Part shown: positions 16,801-48,700 of the stretch, piece by piece
How the letters are laid out: each line of letters opens with the position of its first letter
Numbering within the stretch: the stretch's first letter is position 1
DNA from: Owenia fusiformis
Lineage: Eukaryota; Annelida; Polychaeta; Sabellida; Oweniidae
Length of the DNA: 64,000 bases
Reading direction: 5' to 3'
NCBI GenBank assembly: GCA_903813345.2
Contig: CAIIXF020000004.1
Coordinates: forward strand, 2,931,525-2,995,524
Made by a program: the position numbers and the translations under genes
The notes under the pieces: model-generated
Seen by the model: the letters and a program-made list of their open reading frames with translations, nothing else
What the model was told of the DNA's origin: nothing
Database searches by the model: none

Positions 16801-18280
16801 TGGCATCTGTAACAAATGGCAGGTGGTGACATTTTGCATCTTAATGTCTTGATGTTACAATGTATCTTGTTTTTACTTATTTAAGATGTGCAAAAGCAGG
16901 GAATCATGAGGCCAAGGGGTATGCTAACACAGCATATGGTATGACCAAAGTAGCTGTCAGTGCATTAACAGGTATCCAGCAACAACAGTTTAACAAAGAT
17001 CCACGAGAAGACATCATCGTCAACTCTGTGAGTATGAGTGCTGCAAGCCAGGCAAGAGGCAGACAGTTTGCCTTGTTAATTTTTTTCCAGAAAAATAGTC
17101 ACTCAATTCAGTTTTTCATTTTTATCTAAATGGAAATGGGGTCTTGTGATATGAGCCTCATTTGGCTTTAATTTACTTTGCCTCTTTCAAGATGGGCCAT
17201 GTTTTAGAATCAGCCCACACAAAATGTATGCCCATTGATGGCCTTGCCTCTTTCAAGACCCTTGCTAGGTCATTGCTTTTTATGACCCCATATTTTTAAA
17301 ATCAGCCCATGGCATGCAAGATGGTTTTGTATCGATGTTCATTAAAAATGACTCCACACAAAAGTCCTAGTATTGTATAAAATGAAGCTCTATTACTTTT
17401 ATTTTCAAAAACATTTTTGTTATTTTTCTTTTAACAGGCTGACCCAGGTTATGTTAACACAGATATGTCCAGCGGAAAAGGGAAAAAAACTATTGATCAG
17501 GGTAAGTTGATTAACATGTCGCCACCAAGATCTCCCATGTCACCACCAAGATCTCCCATGTCACCACCAAGATCTCCCATGTCTCCACCAAGATCTCCCA
17601 TGTCACCACCAAGATCTCCCATGTCTCCACCAAGATCTCCCATGCCACCACCAAGATCTCCCATGTCACCACCAAGATCTCCCTTGTCACCACCAAGATC
17701 TCCCTTGTCACCACCAAGATCTCCATCGTCACCACCAAGATCTCCCATGTCACCACTCAGATCTCCCAGTGTGTACTTTTCAGAACTTGAGAATGAGATT
17801 CTTAGTAATGTTAATGGAAAAGTTGATGGAATTCTGTGAGCTATTTTTGGGAGTCTCCCAATTTTTTTGTATCACCACCAAAAGTGGTGACATATTGTTA
17901 TAGTCTCCAACTTTTTGTGTCAGCGGTTGGTGTTTGCGCATCTTTAACAAATGGCAGGTGGGGTTCACCTTTGACAACTTTGATCCAAAAATGGCCAAAC
18001 ACACTTGAAAAGTGCTCAGAATGATGAAAACCTGCATGATTTTGAAATAATTTTTGGCCCCTTGAACTTCCCTGGCCACGTGCTTGCAATGCATGATACA
18101 ATAATTCTTAACATTATGAAGTTTATGCTGTTGACCACCTTATCAATATATATAACTCATGACCAGTATTGTGTTCCAGGTGCCATAGAGCCTCTAGCAT
18201 GCGCTCTCCTACCAGCTAATGTTGGGGCCCCCAAGGGTGAAACAATTACTAGCGGTACCAAGGTTTTGCCAGTGTTTTAA
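10816..18280 (+). CDS. CBR1: Carbonyl reductase 1-like NADPH-dependent SDR (first exon missing)
   Basis: Exons read 10816-10897, 11234-11412, 12770-12882, 13644-13769, 16886-17027, 17438-17501 and 18180-18280 (stop TAA 18278-18280). All have AG/GT borders and matching phases, totalling 807 bases (268 residues plus stop). The product has the classical SDR marks in order: cofactor motif TGSNKGIG at the start, NNAA after LDVLV, VVHVSS with the catalytic Ser, YGMTK (Tyr-x3-Lys) and ADPGYVNTDM. The long insert between the Ser and Tyr blocks is typical of monomeric carbonyl reductases, which reduce ketones and quinones with NADPH in the cytosol. Human CBR1 is 277 residues, so only about ten N-terminal residues are absent; they must lie on an upstream exon I could not find. 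The NNAG motif reads NNAA here, a mild change. Confidence 0.9.
11529..11927. mobile_element. hAT-type MITE in CBR intron
   Basis: It has inverted ends TAGGGGTCCC and GGGACCCCTA and a perfect 8-bp target duplication ATTCCCAT at 11521-11528 and 11928-11935. Eight-bp duplications and this kind of end are typical of hAT elements. The 399 bp contain GATACGA-type repeats and no transposase. The overlapping open frames at 11834-12095 are not genes. Confidence 0.88.
13470..13615 (+). repeat. 21-bp minisatellite just upstream of CBR exon
   Basis: About seven copies of GAATCCTTCAATTCTCCYGCA lie in the intron and end 28 bp before the acceptor of the 13644 exon. Each unit holds a pyrimidine stretch followed by GCAG or GTAG, so it resembles a 3' splice site. 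The unit is a multiple of three, hence long open frames on both strands, which I do not call. Confidence 0.85.
14142..16804. mobile_element. ATCCCATCGAAC element, 5' piece and inner piece split by insertion
   Basis: Bases 14142-14380 match the left end of the full element at 23365-24381. Bases 16711-16804 match the very next part of it (from about 23641). So one old copy was split by about 2.3 kb of other sequence (14381-16710), with AATAT at both borders as a possible target duplication. The inserted 2.3 kb holds no gene I can recognise. Confidence 0.65.
16808..16850. repeat. Right-end fragment of ATGTCACCACC family
   Basis: CTGTAACAAATGGCAGGTGG and the following TTTTGCATCTTAATG match the right part of the copy at 10500-10602. 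Only this end is present. Confidence 0.55.
17516..17767 (+). repeat. 21-bp minisatellite coding MSPPRSP x12, in frame after CBR exon
   Basis: Twelve units of ATGTCACCACCAAGATCTCCC begin 14 bases after the donor at 17502. The reading frame of the CBR exon 17438-17501 continues without a stop through the donor, the array and on to a stop at 17837-17839. An unspliced or intron-retained transcript would give CBR a tail of twelve Ser-Pro-Pro-Arg-Ser-Pro-type repeats plus about 24 more residues, in place of the last 33. Such a tail would lack the normal C-terminus. Whether it is made is unknown. Confidence 0.9.
17869..17964. repeat. Dispersed repeat, ATGTCACCACC family, copy 2
   Basis: It runs from GTATCACCACCAAAAGTGGTG to AAATGGCAGGTGGGG and shares GACATATT, ACTTTTTGTGT and the CTTTAACAAATGG segment with the copy at 10500. 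It lies in the last CBR intron. Confidence 0.55.
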
Positions 18281-25800: not shown

Positions 25801-28800
25801 AATGATGCATCCTAAAAAACTATGTTCACCACAATTTGTGTTTGCTTGTGCATTTGTGTTAAAATGATTTAATATCCCATATTTTTTTCAGATGGCTAAG
25901 CATGAAAATGCTCCAAAAAATTGTGAGGTGTTTATTAACTTAAACAATGTAGTGACATGTGAGAAAATGGCTATTAAAGCCATCATAGGGGCTGCAAAAG
26001 ACAGGTGAGAACTTGCCACACCTTGGTAAGGTCTAGAAATTAGAACAATGATCTCCCCAGCATTAAAGCAAGTGGGCATAGCACCCACCTGAGATTTTGA
26101 AAGTAGGCTTGCACCCACCTGAAAATCCCTTTGCAGTCACTTGAAAATGAGAAAAATCATGACAAATTGGCATATTTTGACCAATTTTGGTCTGAATTGT
26201 GAAAATGAGAATTTTGCACTCTAGAAAAAACCCTGGGAGATCAGTGTAGAATATCCCAAATTAAGAAATTTATTATAGCATAGAATTTGCACAATAAGTA
26301 TGTATGATTTAAAAAGATCAAGCCCTTTTGATTTATGCAAATTATTATTTTCAGCACCCCAGCGCAAACATTCCAGTTTGACCATACATATCCAGGAATG
26401 AGTAAATCGAATTCCACAGCAATTTTATATGCAGAGATCGGGACCCAGTCTTTCAAAGAATGGCATGGGATCTTAAAAGATTTGGCAAGCAAAGGAGAGC
26501 TAACTTATATTTTACGCCATTTTGTAAAGGTAGGCTCACTTTATTTATTTTTTTATTTTTTTAAGCTCACTTTATATTTTGGTTTTGTATTTAAAGCAAC
26601 ACTTGTGAGTTTATTCTTTTCAAGACATTGCTCCAGTGTTAAAAAACTTACAATGATTCTAGCAATTCTATAATTTCAGTTTGGACATATTAATCCTAAC
26701 TATAAAGGCACTATAAAATTCTATATCTTGTTATTTCAAGCAAGTTTGGCATTAAGATTTCTTTACATTACTGTAATGGTCAAACTTTATTTTTCCACAT
26801 TCGAAAAAAGCAATTGATTCAATTGGAAAATAACTGGTTCTGGGGGGGGGGGGTTCTCATGCTGGAACTCATCTTGCACTGTATTCACACTCTCCAGAGG
26901 CGTAGCTAGCCCATTTTGCGAGTGTACGCCCGTATGATTTCCCGGTTTTATCAAAATTATCAAAACGATGGTTCCATAAAATAGGAAGATCACGGGTGTT
27001 CAGAAGATAGGGGACACACTGAACACTCTTAATTCAATGAAGGAAATATGTATTGTTTGATCATTTTGACATAGCTTTTTAAAGGGATTGAATTGACTGT
27101 ATTAACAGATAATATTCGGGAAACAAAATAGACAGATTCTATATAATCATGCCATCGGCGATCGAAGCCGTCTATCAAGGCGATTTTATTTTCTAGGCTA
27201 CCTAAAACTGTATGTATGAGGCTCATTGTTTTAAGCTTTTGTGGTCATTCTCCATGAAATATTATTATTTTTTCTGTGTTTGTTTTTATCTAGCTCACAA
27301 GGTGATTAACAATAAAAGAACAGTTACACGACCGTCTCAACTCCATTTCGGATCTTAACAATCTGTACGTGATTCTATAGAATAAATTCTATCTTTCTGT
27401 TTTTTGCATTTGCGAACATGTCAATAACAGTATCAATGTTTATATCCTGTTCCCTATGGATATGTATCATGGCCAAGGAAGAAAGTCTTTCCTCGTTCAT
27501 TGTGGAACGCAAGTATGACTTAATGCGTTTCAAACTGCTAAAGCTTCGTTCAGCCACGCAAGTGGATACTGGCAATGTTAGCAGCTGGACCAAACACGTG
27601 TAGACATTGGGGTAAAGAGGCTGGGGGGGTCTGTTGAATAGTCTCCTATCGATTTCTATCTCTTGGTAAAATATTTATTTTTCATCACAATTAATCAGGT
27701 AAATTTTATTTTTCCTTAAAATTTAAGAGTACGCCTGGGCGTACTTGGCGTACACGTAGCTACGCCACTGCTCTCCAAAAATATCTTTGTATTTGTTTTC
27801 TAGAATGAAAGTCCCAAGAAAACCAGGCTATCAGGGTATGGAGTGGAGTTAGCTATCAAAAGCCAGGAGTATAAAGCAAAGGATGACACAAAAGTAGAAG
27901 GTAAAATGTCTTGAATATACAAGATAGTTCAATTTTAAGTGTTTTGATTTTTTCATTGTATAAACTTTATTTAGGTACATGTATAGTAAATACATTTCCA
28001 GCCACAAATTGCAATGTTGGCATTATAGGTTGGCCATCTATGATGAATGATAAAATAAAAGTATAATATTTTGCTGTTTTGGACATATGAGCATCGATGC
28101 TGTGTGAATTATTTGGCTAGTAAACTTACCATTCAGTGTTAATGATAACTCTATTGTTTGTTTTCTTACAGATGATGGTTCCCAAGGCAACAGTGAAGAT
28201 GATGAAGAGGATGTGGAAGGATTTATATTCTCAAAGTTAAAGTATGTTTTTTTGTACACAGAAGAAAACCTGTAAAGTGGTACACCTCTTCATAGAGGGA
28301 TCACTTTTCAGTCCTGTTTGATCAGTTTCAGTCCTGTTGGATCTTTTTTCAGTTCTATTGGATCACTTAGTCCTGTTGGATCACTTTTCAGTCCTGTTTG
28401 ATCACTTTTCAGTCCTGTTGGATCACTTTCCAGTCCTGTTTGATCACTTTTCAGCCCTGTTACCCATTGAAATGAAATGAGCCTCTGTAAGTGAACACCT
28501 CTTACATGGAATACTATTTTGGGCATTCTACTAACTCAGATTTAATTGTACTGTACTTTTTAAAATACTTTGGATAAATAAGGCAATACGACTCAAAGAA
28601 TAGAATAAATGAATTTCTAAATTGTGAAAAAGGAAATATTGAATAAAATGATATTTGAAGATTGTCAATAAATCATGCATTTTGTTAAATGAGGAATTGT
28701 TAAAAGTGAAAATGACTGATACAACCATACAGAGAACAAGACTCAACAACAAAGACAATTCATTATTTTTTATTTTAATTAACCCGTTGTCATACATCTT

Positions 28801-31800
28801 TTACTGTATATCTAAATAGAACATGTATTCATATTCCAGAAAACTACATCCTGAAGATAAAGATAACCTCGTTGAGTTTAAGAAGTATTTACAAGAAAGT
28901 AAAGGAGAACTCGCCCCATTGAAAGCATGGCAGCTACAAGGTATACTACACCCCCAATTAGTATTATTAAAACAATGATGAAATGAGCCCTTGTCAGACT
29001 GAAAGTTTTGCCTGGAAATTTAATTAAGACAGCCCACATACTTTTAAATCAAAACACAGATGTAATTTATCTCATCTTCCGATGAATTGTATCTTGGTTT
29101 ATGCTAATAAAATTGAAAAAAATATGTGTAGGACATATGAAATGAAAGCTTAACAGCTTGTATGAAAGCATGTGAAAATGTTGAATTGTAATTCCCCCAA
29201 TCCAATGTTTATCCAGGTTAAATTGAATTTATTGCATTTTATGTTATTTTTTTATTTATAGATCTCAGTTTCCAAGCTGCCCAGAAAGTATTGTCCAGCC
29301 CATCTGCAGATGCGCTCAGAGTTCTGACTGATATCAGCCAGAATTTCCCAACTCAAGCCAGGTGAGTCCCATTGTTTCCCAACTCAAGCCAGGTGAGTCC
29401 CATAGTTTCCCAACTCAAGCCAGGTAAGGTCCATTGTTTCCCAACTCAAGCCAGTAGAGTCCCATTGTTTCCCAACTCAAGCCAGGTGAGTCCCATTGTT
29501 TCCCAACTCAAGCCAGTTGAGTCCCATTGTTTCCCAACTCAAGCCAGGCGAATCCCATTGTTTCCCAACTCAAGCCAGTTGAGTCCCATTGTTTCCCAAC
29601 TCAAGCCAGGCGAGTCCCATTGTTTCCCAACTCAAGCCAGGTGAGTGCCATAGTTTCCCAACTCGAGCCAGGCGAGTCCCATTGTTTCCCAACTCAAGCC
29701 AGTTGAGTCCTATTGTTTCCCAACTCAAGCCAAGTGAGTCCCATAGTTTCCCAACTCGAGCCAGGCGAGTCCCATTGTTTCCCAACTCAAGCCAGTTGAG
29801 TCCTATTGTTTCTCCCAACTCAAGCCAGTTGAGTCCTATTGTTTCCCAACTCAAGCCAAGTGAGTCCCATAGTTTCCCAACTCAAGCCAGGTGATTCCCA
29901 TAGTTTCCCAACTCAAGCCAGGTGATTCCCATTGTTTCCCAACTCAAGCCAGGTGATTCCCATTGTTTCCCAACTCAAGCCAGGTGATTCCCATTGTTTC
30001 CCAACTCAAGCCAGGTGATTCCCATTGTTTCCCAACTCAAGCCAGGTGATTCCCATTGTTTCCCAACTCAAGCCAGGTGATTCCCATTGTTTCCCAACTC
30101 AAGCCAGGTGATTCCCATTGTTTCCCAACTCAAGCCAGGTGATTCCCATTGTTTCCCAACTCAAGTCAGGTGATTCCCATTGTTTCCCAACTCAAGCCAG
30201 GTGATTCCCATTGTTTCCCAACTCAAGTCAGGTGATTCCCATTGTTTCCCAACTCAAGCCAGGTGAGTGCCATAGTTTCCCAACTCGAGCCAGGCGAGTC
30301 CCATTGTTTCCCAACTCAAGCCAGTTGAGTCCTATTGTTTCCCAACTCAAGCCAAGTGAGTCCCATAGTTTCCCAACTCGAGCCAGGCGAGTCCCATTGT
30401 TTCCCAACTCAAGCCAGTTGAGTCCTATTGTTTCTCCCAACTCAAGCCAGTTGAGTCCTATTGTTTCCCAACTCAAGCCAAGTGAGTCCCATAGTTTCCC
30501 AACTCAAGCCAGGTGATTCCCATTGTTTTCCAACTCAAGCCAGGTGATTCCCATTGTTTCCCAACTCAAGCCAGGTGATTCCCATTGTTTCCCAACTCAA
30601 GCCAGGTGATTCCCATTGTTTCCCAACTCAAGCCAGGTGATTCCCATTGTTTCCCAACTCAAGCCAGGTGATTCCCATTGTTTCCCAACTCAAGCCAGGT
30701 GATTCCCATTGTTTCCCAACTCAAGTCAGGTGATTCCCATTGTTTCCCAACTCAAGCCAGGTGATTCCCATTGTTTCCCAACTCAAGCCAGGTGATTCCC
30801 ATTGTTTCCCAACTCAAGCCAGGTGATTCCCATTGTTTCCCAACTCAAGCCAGGTGATTCCCATTGTTTCCCAACTCAAGCCAGGTGATTCCCATTGTTT
30901 CCCAACTCAAGCCAGGTGATTCCCATTGTTTCCCAACTCAAGCCAGGTGATTCCCATTGTTTCCCAACTCAAGCCAGGTGATTCCCATTGTTTCCCAACT
31001 CAAGTCAGGTGATTCCCATTGTTTCCCAACTCAAGCCAAGTGAGTGCCTTAGTTTTCTGAAGATTACTGCTTGCTAAAGTATTTTTTTGGTCATGTATTT
31101 CAGTGATCTCCCCTGATATTTTGAAAATAGGCTTGCACCCACCTGAAAATCTATTTGCACCCACTTGAAAATGAGAAACATCATGAAAATTTGGCATATT
31201 TTGACCAATTTTGGTCTGAATTGTGAAAATAAGAATCCCACTTGAGAAAAAATCCTGTGGAGATCACTGTATTCATATACTAGTATTGCATATTTAATAG
31301 ATGTTTTGTGATTTTTATTTCACTTGTAAAGTGTTATATATTTGGGTTGTCTTGTGCAGAAATCTTGTCATGCGGGCATATGATGGCACAAGAAACTTTG
31401 TATCAAAATAGCAAAAAAGAAGTGTAGAGCCATATATTGTGCACAATACAGATGTTCTTAGTATAACTGGAAATAACTGGAAATTTGAAATTTTGATTTC
31501 AGGTCACTGGTGTCTATTCCAGTGGATGGCAAAGTCAAGAAAGAAATCAAGAAAAATCAAGAGGTTGGTAAAAATGATCGGTCCCCAGAAAATATTAAGA
31601 TCAAATGTAACATCTAATTTTTTGACAACATCTTATGTTTTCAAATGCTCAGTGAAATCACTGGTTGTGTATTGATAAGGTTTCATTTAGATTATTTTGT
31701 AAGTGAAAAGGGAAATATGACTTCACTGACATTTCTACATAAAATCTAGTTTGTGAGTGGGAGATGATGGAAGTTCCTTGTGTTAACTAGAAATCAGAAA

Positions 31801-45700: not shown

Positions 45701-48700
45701 AACTTTCCACATTTTCTTTTATTTCAGGCTGCAAATTTATTTTACAAGAAAACTGGATTAGGAGCTCTTCCCCAAGTTTTGATGAATGGAGTACCACTAT
45801 CCCAAGATTCTTTGACCTCAGATAGCTTTGAAGAGGCTGTGGTTGGTCAGATATTGCAGTTCACTCCTGTCATACAGCGTGCTGTGTATAATGTGAGTCT
45901 AATTTTGAATTAAGATGGTTCCGTAAGGTGAGAATACAATCATGATTTCAATTAATGATAATTAGTAAAATGAGTTATATTTTTCGAAACTTGATGTAGA
46001 TGTTGACATAGTTCAAAATCAAAATATTTTAATGTATTGCCAAAATCATTCAAAATTAGTTCTTGATGCAAATGAATGGATAGGCCATAGTTTTGAGGAA
46101 TATACGAAGACCTGGAACAGCACATGTAAATCAACTTATTTCGTTACCATGGTGAATGCATGTTTTTTCCTTGTGTTGCCTTAAGTATTTTCTGATGTCC
46201 AAAATAGGAAGTAAATATTTTATATTTTTAGGGAAAACTCACTGATTCAATGGATGTTTATGATTGGATAATGAACCAAGAGAATGTTCTCCCTCGACTT
46301 AACGACCGTGTCCTCGGAACTTCTAACACTTTTGTGGATTTTACAAAAAACACAGGTTTGTGTCTTTATATTTCGAGACGAGTTGTCAATCTTTTCAATA
46401 TTTCTCAAATGCCTTAATACTTTAAATGCAATGTGTTATCAAATTCAACTAACATATTCTCATTAAATTATAGTTCAGGATGTATAATTTTATTTTATTT
46501 GCTTTCGTATAAGTCTGAGATGTGCTTCACTCAAATTAAAACAAACTGTTAAACCTATCCAAGTGGAACACTCTATGGATCACAAAAATGTTATCAACTT
46601 AGGACCTGTTCCGTTTATAAAGGATTAATCAACGTTGCAAAGAATCACAAAATCAAAAAGTGTTTCCAGTGATTTCCCAAGCATTAAAGCAAGTGGGTGC
46701 AGCATACACCTGAAAATAGGCCTGCACCCACCTAAAAATCTATTAGCACCCACTTGAAAATGAGAAAAATCATGAAAATTGGCATATTTTTGAACAATTG
46801 ACCAATTTCGGTCTGAATTGTGAAAATGAGAATTTTACACCCACCTGAGAAAAAATCCCAAGGAGATCAATGGTTTCAATTGCAGAGGTTCTGATTCTAC
46901 AATTGACATGTTTTTCTGTTCCTTATTTTGCAATTGTATTTAATTATAGATGCCAGTAGATTTGAAAGTCCTGATCAATTCTCGAAGCTATCCCCACAAG
47001 AGATGACCTCTGTCATGGCCCAAAATATGAAATATATAACAAGAAAAGGTAGGTTACTATTTGTTTGAGTTATCGTTTCATTACCTTTAGAGAAAAGATA
47101 CATATCTGAATGTCATCATTTAGTTTTTATGTCTCCACCAAAAGTGGTGTCTCCAACTTTTTTGTGGATGGTGTTCAGCTGCTGGTGTTCAGTGGTTGGT
47201 GTTTTGTACTCTGTGTCTGTAACAGTGTATGGTGTTCGTAACAGCATTCGGCGGTACTCAGTTGGCAATGGCAGGTGGTGACATTTTGCATGTTATAATG
47301 TTTTACCTTGATTTGAATGGAAAACCATATCTTTTTATTGAGTGAATAAGCTTTTAATTTAAATGTTTTGAAATGGCATCGACCTTTCTATATCAATATA
47401 CAAATTCTCTTTTTGGTTTTTGATCCTCGGTATGTCCCTTGGTATGTATTCAATATGTTTTGCTGATTCTGTTCTTTCTACTCTATTCTGTGCTTTAACC
47501 CTTAAATGATCAAAACCAATAAAAAGTTTCAGATTTTCTTTGAAAAATTTGACTGTCCTTGTGTTTATTGATATAGAATCATAGAGCATCAGAAAGCTCA
47601 TGAAACTATATATTTTCTGAATGCTCAAGCCATTAACTATTCAGAAATGACATAAAAATGTACATTTGACAGCTGGTATGGGTATGGTAGCTCATCTAAT
47701 TGAATTGAAAAGCGAAAAATATACCTGATTTTGCTGTGCCACAAAATAATCTGTAACACCTTGTGTAACCCCTTGTAATTGCATGTCAGCTACATAAATT
47801 GGTCTATAAATTTGTAAACTCACCCACTACTTGTTACTATTGAAGTCTGAATCATCATCACTTTTTCCCGGCACATCCCTTATTATAATATGCAATGCTT
47901 CTTCAACACACACTCGTCGACATCCATTAGACGCCATTTTGTTACTCAAAATCTGTCTTTGAGTGCAAAATTGTTGTAATAATTGATGAAAAACTATCTA
48001 TTTTCGATATAAACTCAATTTTTATTTGCTAAATGTAAAGTTCAAGGTCACATCTCAGAAGGAGGCTCAGATAGGGGAACCCGCGACTTTTCAAATGTCT
48101 GCTTTTTACAAATGTAAACAATGTATGGAAAGCACACCTTGAAAGCGCGGTTGATCATTTACGGGTTAAAATGTGCTCACCTTGAATTTTCATGATGAAT
48201 ATACATGTTTTATATTAATTGTAGATGAAGAGAGTATAAGAAGTATGACCACTTGGGTTGTTTGCGATGTAGAAACACCAGAAGGAAGGGAACTCATGTA
48301 CAGCGCCATCAAACAAATGGTGAGTTATTATCTATGTTTCTGAGTGGGGTATAAGAAACATGAGTATATGGGTGGTTTTTGATATCAAAGGTATTCACCT
48401 AAAATGAAATTAAATATAAGTTTTATTATACACTGTTTCCTCACTCACATTAATGAACATTAACAAACTATTGATATCTACTAAATAATAACAATTTATT
48501 CCCGGGCATAAATAAAATTAAGAATACACTGGACTAAGTCGTGACGGATGAATGACATTTGATATTCAACAGAAGTCACCTGAATATCGTTGAATATATC
48601 ACTTGTTATTTTTGGTCACATGTAGAACGTAGACCAATCAGAGAGTGAGGAATATGACAGTGATATAATTATGTACAATATTCATATTTGACAATGTTTA

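Follow-up and report, generated by a model that had tools for sequence, protein, structure and literature searches.

An early case of a minisatellite that carries multiple splice donors is reportedly that of the human IFI6 (6-16) gene, by Turri in 1995; its unit is 12 bp. For the "mirages" of lancelets, a work of Canestro in 2002 is cited.

Mirages are described as tandem repeats lying across exon-intron boundaries, at either end, in the Adh3, globin and PGBD5 genes; they were reported without disturbance of splicing and have been proposed to seed introns (PMC3087553, PMC3902484). Three human genes offer related cases. In IFI6, two downstream units are described as being used, giving other mRNAs (PMC4526556). 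In CBS, each unit of the 31-bp VNTR c.1444_1467+7(16_21) holds, according to the notation, 24 exonic and 7 intronic bases, and there are 16-21 such units (PMC2630376, PMC1395315). In ABCA7, a 25-bp VNTR of 12 to ~427 units starts with the exon 18 donor; the functional donor is reported to lie in the first unit, a later unit supplies a cryptic donor and the retention of one unit leads to a stop (PMC5954066). Moreover, tandem repeats at exon-intron boundaries were noted in a survey of human segmental duplications (PMC2812944), and no genome-wide count of junction arrays was found among the titles and abstract beginnings listed by searches of the open-licence literature.

Here, we examined an array of this type in the annelid Owenia fusiformis. 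The window, i.e., the whole stretch of 64,000 nucleotides that was analysed, belongs to contig C4 of a 498-Mb assembly (G000), in which ~477 of 498 Mb (96% of bases) is held by 12 large contigs; the GC content of the window is 31-37% (8-kb steps). Neither figure resembles Branchiostoma, with ~41% GC and 19-20 chromosomes. A search for the COX1 family gave no match. A sequence-only reading had known of no described case of this scale. As a claim of no precedent, this fails for the kind as well as the scale, since the lancelet mirages, CBS, ABCA7 and IFI6 are known and the ABCA7 repeat extends well beyond it.

The junction array of the UGGT gene

The concatenated exon peptides of the host gene match Pfam families Thioredoxin_12, _13, _14 and _15 (PF18400-PF18403). 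Judged by these four predicted thioredoxin-like domains of the folding sensor, the gene is UDP-glucose:glycoprotein glucosyltransferase (UGGT), in agreement with the first identification. A genome search with PF18401 found two exons, both at the UGGT locus, and a PDB search with UGGT gave no match except one at E 0.99.

The array occupies the end of a coding exon and most of the following intron, where it takes up 1,691 of 2,141 bases (Table 1). TRF placed it at 29344-31043 with a period of 31, 54.7 copies, 94% matches and a score of 2846, while splitting by unit start resolved 55 units, which fall into 17 types and measure 31 bp (53 units) or 33 bp (two units). The unit joins 18 exonic bases, TTTCCCAACTCAAGCCAG, to 13 intronic bases. 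Unit 1 starts 18 bases upstream of the end of the exon, which codes for ...DISQNFPTQA(R), and its exonic half is the last 18 nt of that exon. In the first reading this exon and the next were numbered 9 and 10. The junction-spanning array of ~55 copies and its 18 exon bases per unit are thus as first described, save that "satellite" is too large a term for what is a minisatellite.

Table 1. Positions of the array and neighbouring features in the window (a slash in a motif marks the exon-intron boundary)
Feature	Position	Strand	Remarks
UGGT exon with the array, 100 nt	29262..29361	+	open frame between ttatag/ and /GTGAGT; peptide within the Pfam PF18401 match
Near-perfect palindrome	29322..29343	.	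15-nt arms, 93% complementary, overlapping (repeat search)
31-bp minisatellite, 55 units	29344..31052	+	unit of 18 nt exon tail and 13 nt intron start
UGGT intron holding the array	29362..31502	+	exon/intron reading
Unit-1 5' splice site CAG/GTGAGT	29362..29367	+	sole frame-keeping donor; presumed in use
In-frame TGA	29363..29365	+	met by any transcript spliced from a later donor
20-unit block, copy 1	29623..30244	+	units 10-29; repeated as 30245-30866
20-unit block, copy 2	30245..30866	+	units 30-49
Next UGGT exon	31503..31563	+	exon/intron reading

Reading through donor 1 leads to the TGA at 29363, as demonstrated for the donors of units 2-5. Because this stop comes directly upon read-through, every later donor includes it, which bears out the claim that no donor but the first preserves the frame. 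Unit anatomy and the stop likewise agree with the view of the array as an expanded exon/donor junction in which the first donor alone would be productive. A coding tandem repeat was rejected, as 31 bp is not a multiple of 3 and the stop intervenes.

A genome search for the 16-mer core of the unit, with <=1 mismatch, gave 57 occurrences. Of these, 55 fall in the UGGT array, which is therefore not due to chance, and two are isolated single matches. One UGGT array locus was found in the assembly, and the same search found no second array of this unit in the 498 Mb. An introner or other dispersed intron-making element, or a mobile element, was rejected because no further unit copies appeared in the genome by this search. 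No Rfam match at gathering scores was found across the window.

Other repeats were observed in the window. Three segments with similar reverse-strand translations (26063-26260, 31000-31263 and 46625-46834, minus strand), the second of them within the array-bearing intron, are probably a dispersed repeat. A 21-bp minisatellite of 12.1 copies (TRF) at 17515-17768 begins ~13 bases inside a possible donor, CAGG/GTAAGT, and does not span the junction; the exon before it reads like carbonyl-reductase, as we take it.

A census of the donor place in all 55 units gave CAG/GTGAGT in 5, CAG/GTAAGG in 1, CAA/GTGAGT in 5, GTGATT in 29 (units 18-29 and 38-54), GC in 6 and neither GT nor GC in 9. Most units thus carry donor-like sequence (GT in 40/55, GC in 6/55), in line with the first description. 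Strong donors of about equal strength are present in units 1, 2, 3 and 5.

The U1 genes of this genome begin with ATACTTACCTG (six loci read). A tandem array of U1 snRNA genes, spaced mostly by ~750 bp, was seen at G000:C9:23745153-23771556 among the best 42 candidates scored. The predicted pairing with U1 was -11.9 kcal/mol for CAG/GTGAGT (5 units), -11.5 for CAG/GTAAGG (1), -8.2 for CAG/GTGATT (29), -7.5 (5) and -4.5 (1) for the GC forms, -5.4 for CAA/GTGAGT (5), -5.2 for TTGAGT (8) and -3.9 for TAGAGT (1). By the same prediction, the eight donors of UGGT, that of the array included, range from -5.1 to -11.9 kcal/mol, and GTGATT pairs better than 5/8 of them. The GTGATT units are therefore not dead decoys: by predicted U1 pairing, the "weakened" form seen most often equals several donors that UGGT uses.

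Junction arrays elsewhere in the genome

A genome search for strong donors in three close copies gave 15 arrays for AAGGTRAGT and 11 for CAGGTAAGT (our own grouping, complete lists). Fifty donor-motif loci, partly from among the matches listed, were fetched and 48 were analysed, L010 and L017 (3-copy, 18-bp runs) being left out. In 27/48 of these arrays, taken among the matches listed and read by eye, a coding exon finishes within the first unit, at the donor of that unit; on the two complete lists, junction arrays amount to 15/26 by eye. The latter count includes L034 and L042, which like L049 (too short for Pfam) are junction-like and stand outside the 27.

Exon peptides from the 27 arrays and from L034 and L042 were compared with Pfam, and 11 of these 29 gave matches at E<=0.01. 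Seven (Cript, Reeler, Il2rg, B56, AAA_2, TPR_1 and PX) exceeded the curated cut-off, and MIR, P450, Kringle and TPR_6 fell below it. The PDB comparison covered two of the 27 exons, both of which matched: L023 to neuronal calcium sensor 1 (E 2e-10) and L048 to WD-repeat proteins (best 1.8e-6, with no single stretch passing alone). Overall, 13/27 junction-array exons have Pfam or PDB support (11 by Pfam, two more by PDB).

The period is divisible by 3 in 5/28 arrays (p 0.11), so the later units do not look coding. Using the longest open frame of each array, set by hand for four, we found an in-frame stop inside 24/27 junction arrays; L035 and L053 (period 42) are open to the end of the fetched part. 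L009 (period 33) is open in frame to the array end and L054 (period 36) for ~3 units, and here the use of a later donor would lengthen the protein by 11 or 12 residues for each unit. A 77-copy array of 29 bp with many CAG/GTGAGT units, L012 (G000:C1:11973400-11977400), lies ~130 bp past a possible exon, and no exon was found at its first unit.

As a control on the acceptor side, a search for TTTTNCAGG in three close copies yielded 31 arrays (own grouping, complete list), one being the L034 donor array and the other 30 being fetched. About 14 of the 30 end on the intron/exon junction of a coding exon, by eye. Peptides were given for ten of these exons, and 7/10 matched Pfam at E<=0.01, four of them above the cut-off (TMEM144, Nup93/Nic96, CH and RasGAP). 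A donor-specific origin was rejected: since the share is similar at acceptors (15/26 vs 14/30, p 0.44), junction arrays are not a speciality of donors. The UGGT array is thus not singular in the genome, given the junction arrays read among both donor-motif and acceptor-motif loci.

To set a base rate, we took 40 single CAGGTAAGT sites from the head of a genome-wide list of 4,025 (vs 4,470 for the reversed motif), all on contig C1 with one near neighbour skipped and some of them copy-like (L099/L100, L101/L109, L105/L106). The exon score passed the 5% null level in 17/48 arrays vs 9/40 single sites (p 0.24), a weak test, as this automatic score had a training set of 450 codons and fails to recognise evident exons, for instance L053. 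Pfam support was found for 11/48 arrays vs 5/40 single sites (10 peptides given; p 0.27). By eye, a subjective count, junctions were read in 15/26 arrays vs ~12/40 single motifs (p 0.04). These data are mostly consistent with tandem duplications that fall regardless of splice sites, the latter being no barrier, and a mild enrichment of arrays at junctions is possible.

Compared with reversed motifs, donor arrays seemed in excess for one pattern (1,539 vs 641 matches), which was not confirmed by the others (131 vs 276, 86 vs 104 and 73 vs 56) or by the acceptor pattern (74 vs 89). It should be noted that such counts are swollen by long arrays, and nothing was concluded from them.

Growth, tolerance and donor variation

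The two 20-unit blocks of the UGGT array are identical at 617 of 622 bases, the first 279 without a difference. As units 10-29 recur in this way as units 30-49, whole blocks were copied, which supports the homogenisation of units first proposed and points to past copy-number instability. A near-identical block of 622 bp is open to miscounting, and the length of the array could in principle be an assembly error. The 17 distinct unit types, the block structure itself and the dozens of independent arrays at other junctions on large contigs make this scarcely credible.

The start of the unit, TTTCCC, has a short match in TTTTCT, with which the intron sequence beyond the last unit starts, and this would fit slippage as the origin of the array. 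The last base of the palindrome directly adjoins the array start, and a hairpin there might have triggered the first duplication.

Our explanation runs as follows. A first tandem duplication would have copied the exon end together with the 5' splice site, probably by slippage between the exonic TTTCCC and the intronic TTTTCT. The copies would then have multiplied within the intron, through slippage and unequal exchange of multi-unit blocks, into a minisatellite of the mirage type. Splicing would proceed mostly from donor 1, which defines the short 100-nt exon, later donors leading to a stop and probably to mRNA decay. Since the array would be removed with the intron, it would be near-neutral. 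A chance duplication over the junction may thus have been tolerated because splicing takes the site attached to the exon, and many donor and acceptor junctions of the genome are apparently subject to a like process. As a whole, this account of junction duplication, intronic growth and near-neutrality is the one that we favour, and we consider it quite probable.

Several points weigh on it. The count of junctions by eye (p 0.04), though subjective, may reflect some enrichment. Another point concerns the use of donor 1, against which speak the about equal strength of units 1, 2, 3 and 5 and, by analogy, the partial use in ABCA7 of a donor one unit downstream. The array might even be regulatory, the use of units 2-5 producing a non-productive mRNA (NMD) at a level tuned by copy number or U1 level. 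All donors of units 2-5 lead to an immediate stop, and in ABCA7 the retention of one unit is described as giving a stop, with stop-bearing transcripts raised by cycloheximide (PMC5954066). However, the same source reports that one-unit retention is independent of repeat number, and such arrays are found in many unrelated genes of this genome; we hold a regulatory role to be very improbable.

A further point is the distribution of variation within the unit. The nine donor positions of the UGGT unit have a mean diversity of 0.139, vs 0.043 for its other positions; variable positions make up 6/9 of the donor vs 7/22 elsewhere (p 0.08), and 9/13 of the intron half vs 4/18 of the exon half (p 0.013). 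The greater variability of the intron half is not predicted by plain neutrality and counts against the near-neutral explanation. Moreover, 44/55 units deviate from GTRAG. Such figures would suit a selection of decoys, in which units with a damaged donor were favoured until most decoys were weak and donor 1 won the competition for U1. The donor-confined variation of another junction array, L047, would suit it as well.

Two arrays, L047 (without variation outside the donor) and L022, have lost GT in half of their units, keeping it in 4/8 and 7/14, respectively. Across the 27 other junction arrays, all retrieved with patterns requiring an intact donor and hence biased against decay, and several scored over the fetched stretch only with donor-gap units unscored, variability at the donor exceeds that of the remaining unit in only 8 (Wilcoxon p 0.11). 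In this same biased sample, GT is intact in all scored units of 17/27 arrays (e.g., 12/12 in L036 and 13/13 in L050) and in 270/307 scored units overall, and GGTRAGT is intact throughout in 12/27.

These counts argue against the selection of decoys, as do the predicted pairing of GTGATT, better than that of most real UGGT donors, and the nearest competitors of donor 1, units 2, 3 and 5, which are still strong; moreover, one mutation spread by copying can yield the GTGATT majority. We therefore judge it unlikely. The sample, biased as it is to intact donors, shows that donor decay is unnecessary for an array to persist, and the earlier suggestion that arrays are tolerated through weakened donors is not supported by the arrays that keep GT throughout or by the pairing of GTGATT. 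Near-neutral growth after a junction duplication remains our preferred reading.

Significance and relation to known systems

On balance, we lean slightly towards the view that junction-spanning minisatellites form a class that occurs throughout the genome of this species and is continually renewed. They would lie at both donor and acceptor sites of core genes and present as many as tens of near-identical consecutive splice sites per intron. If so, they would provide a natural experiment on how the spliceosome chooses among numerous equivalent sites, and would be a source of new introns far from the lancelets in which mirages were named. Equal splice sites in a row, the correct one set by position alone, would allow a direct test of exon definition and U1 competition. 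Moreover, dozens of candidates on both sides of exons suggest a tolerance of such duplications far above what single-gene reports convey, which bears on the proposal, as described, that mirages seed new introns (PMC3087553).

Regarding the known systems, the UGGT array spans an exon-intron boundary and many of its units carry splice signals (40 GT and 6 GC of 55), as in the mirages, which are likewise described as minisatellite-like and junction-spanning, with many units bearing AG/GT signals. Its 31-bp unit falls within the 10-72 bp reported for the Adh3 mirage (PMC3087553, PMC3902484). It differs in its host, Owenia fusiformis, which lies outside the lancelets (Branchiostoma), and in size: among the lancelet globins BflGb6/BflGb9, the BflGb6 mirage is described with 6 and 3 units in two haplotypes, vs 55 in UGGT.

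The CBS repeat, as its notation describes it, shares the 31-bp unit, each lying across an exon/donor junction, whereas it has 16-21 units instead of 55 and belongs to a different gene and animal. ABCA7 resembles UGGT in that the first unit holds the donor, reported to be functional in ABCA7, and in the stop that follows if one unit is retained. In contrast, GT forms the first two bases of the ABCA7 unit, as described, so that no exon bases are repeated, and that repeat is larger, up to ~427 units. IFI6, by its description, likewise draws several splice donors from tandem units; its downstream units give other mRNAs, whereas the later units of UGGT give a stop. In its structure, the UGGT array matches the already known mirages of lancelets and the arrays of a few human genes. 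It is thus not new in kind, and the remaining interest seems to lie in the apparent commonness of junction arrays in this genome.
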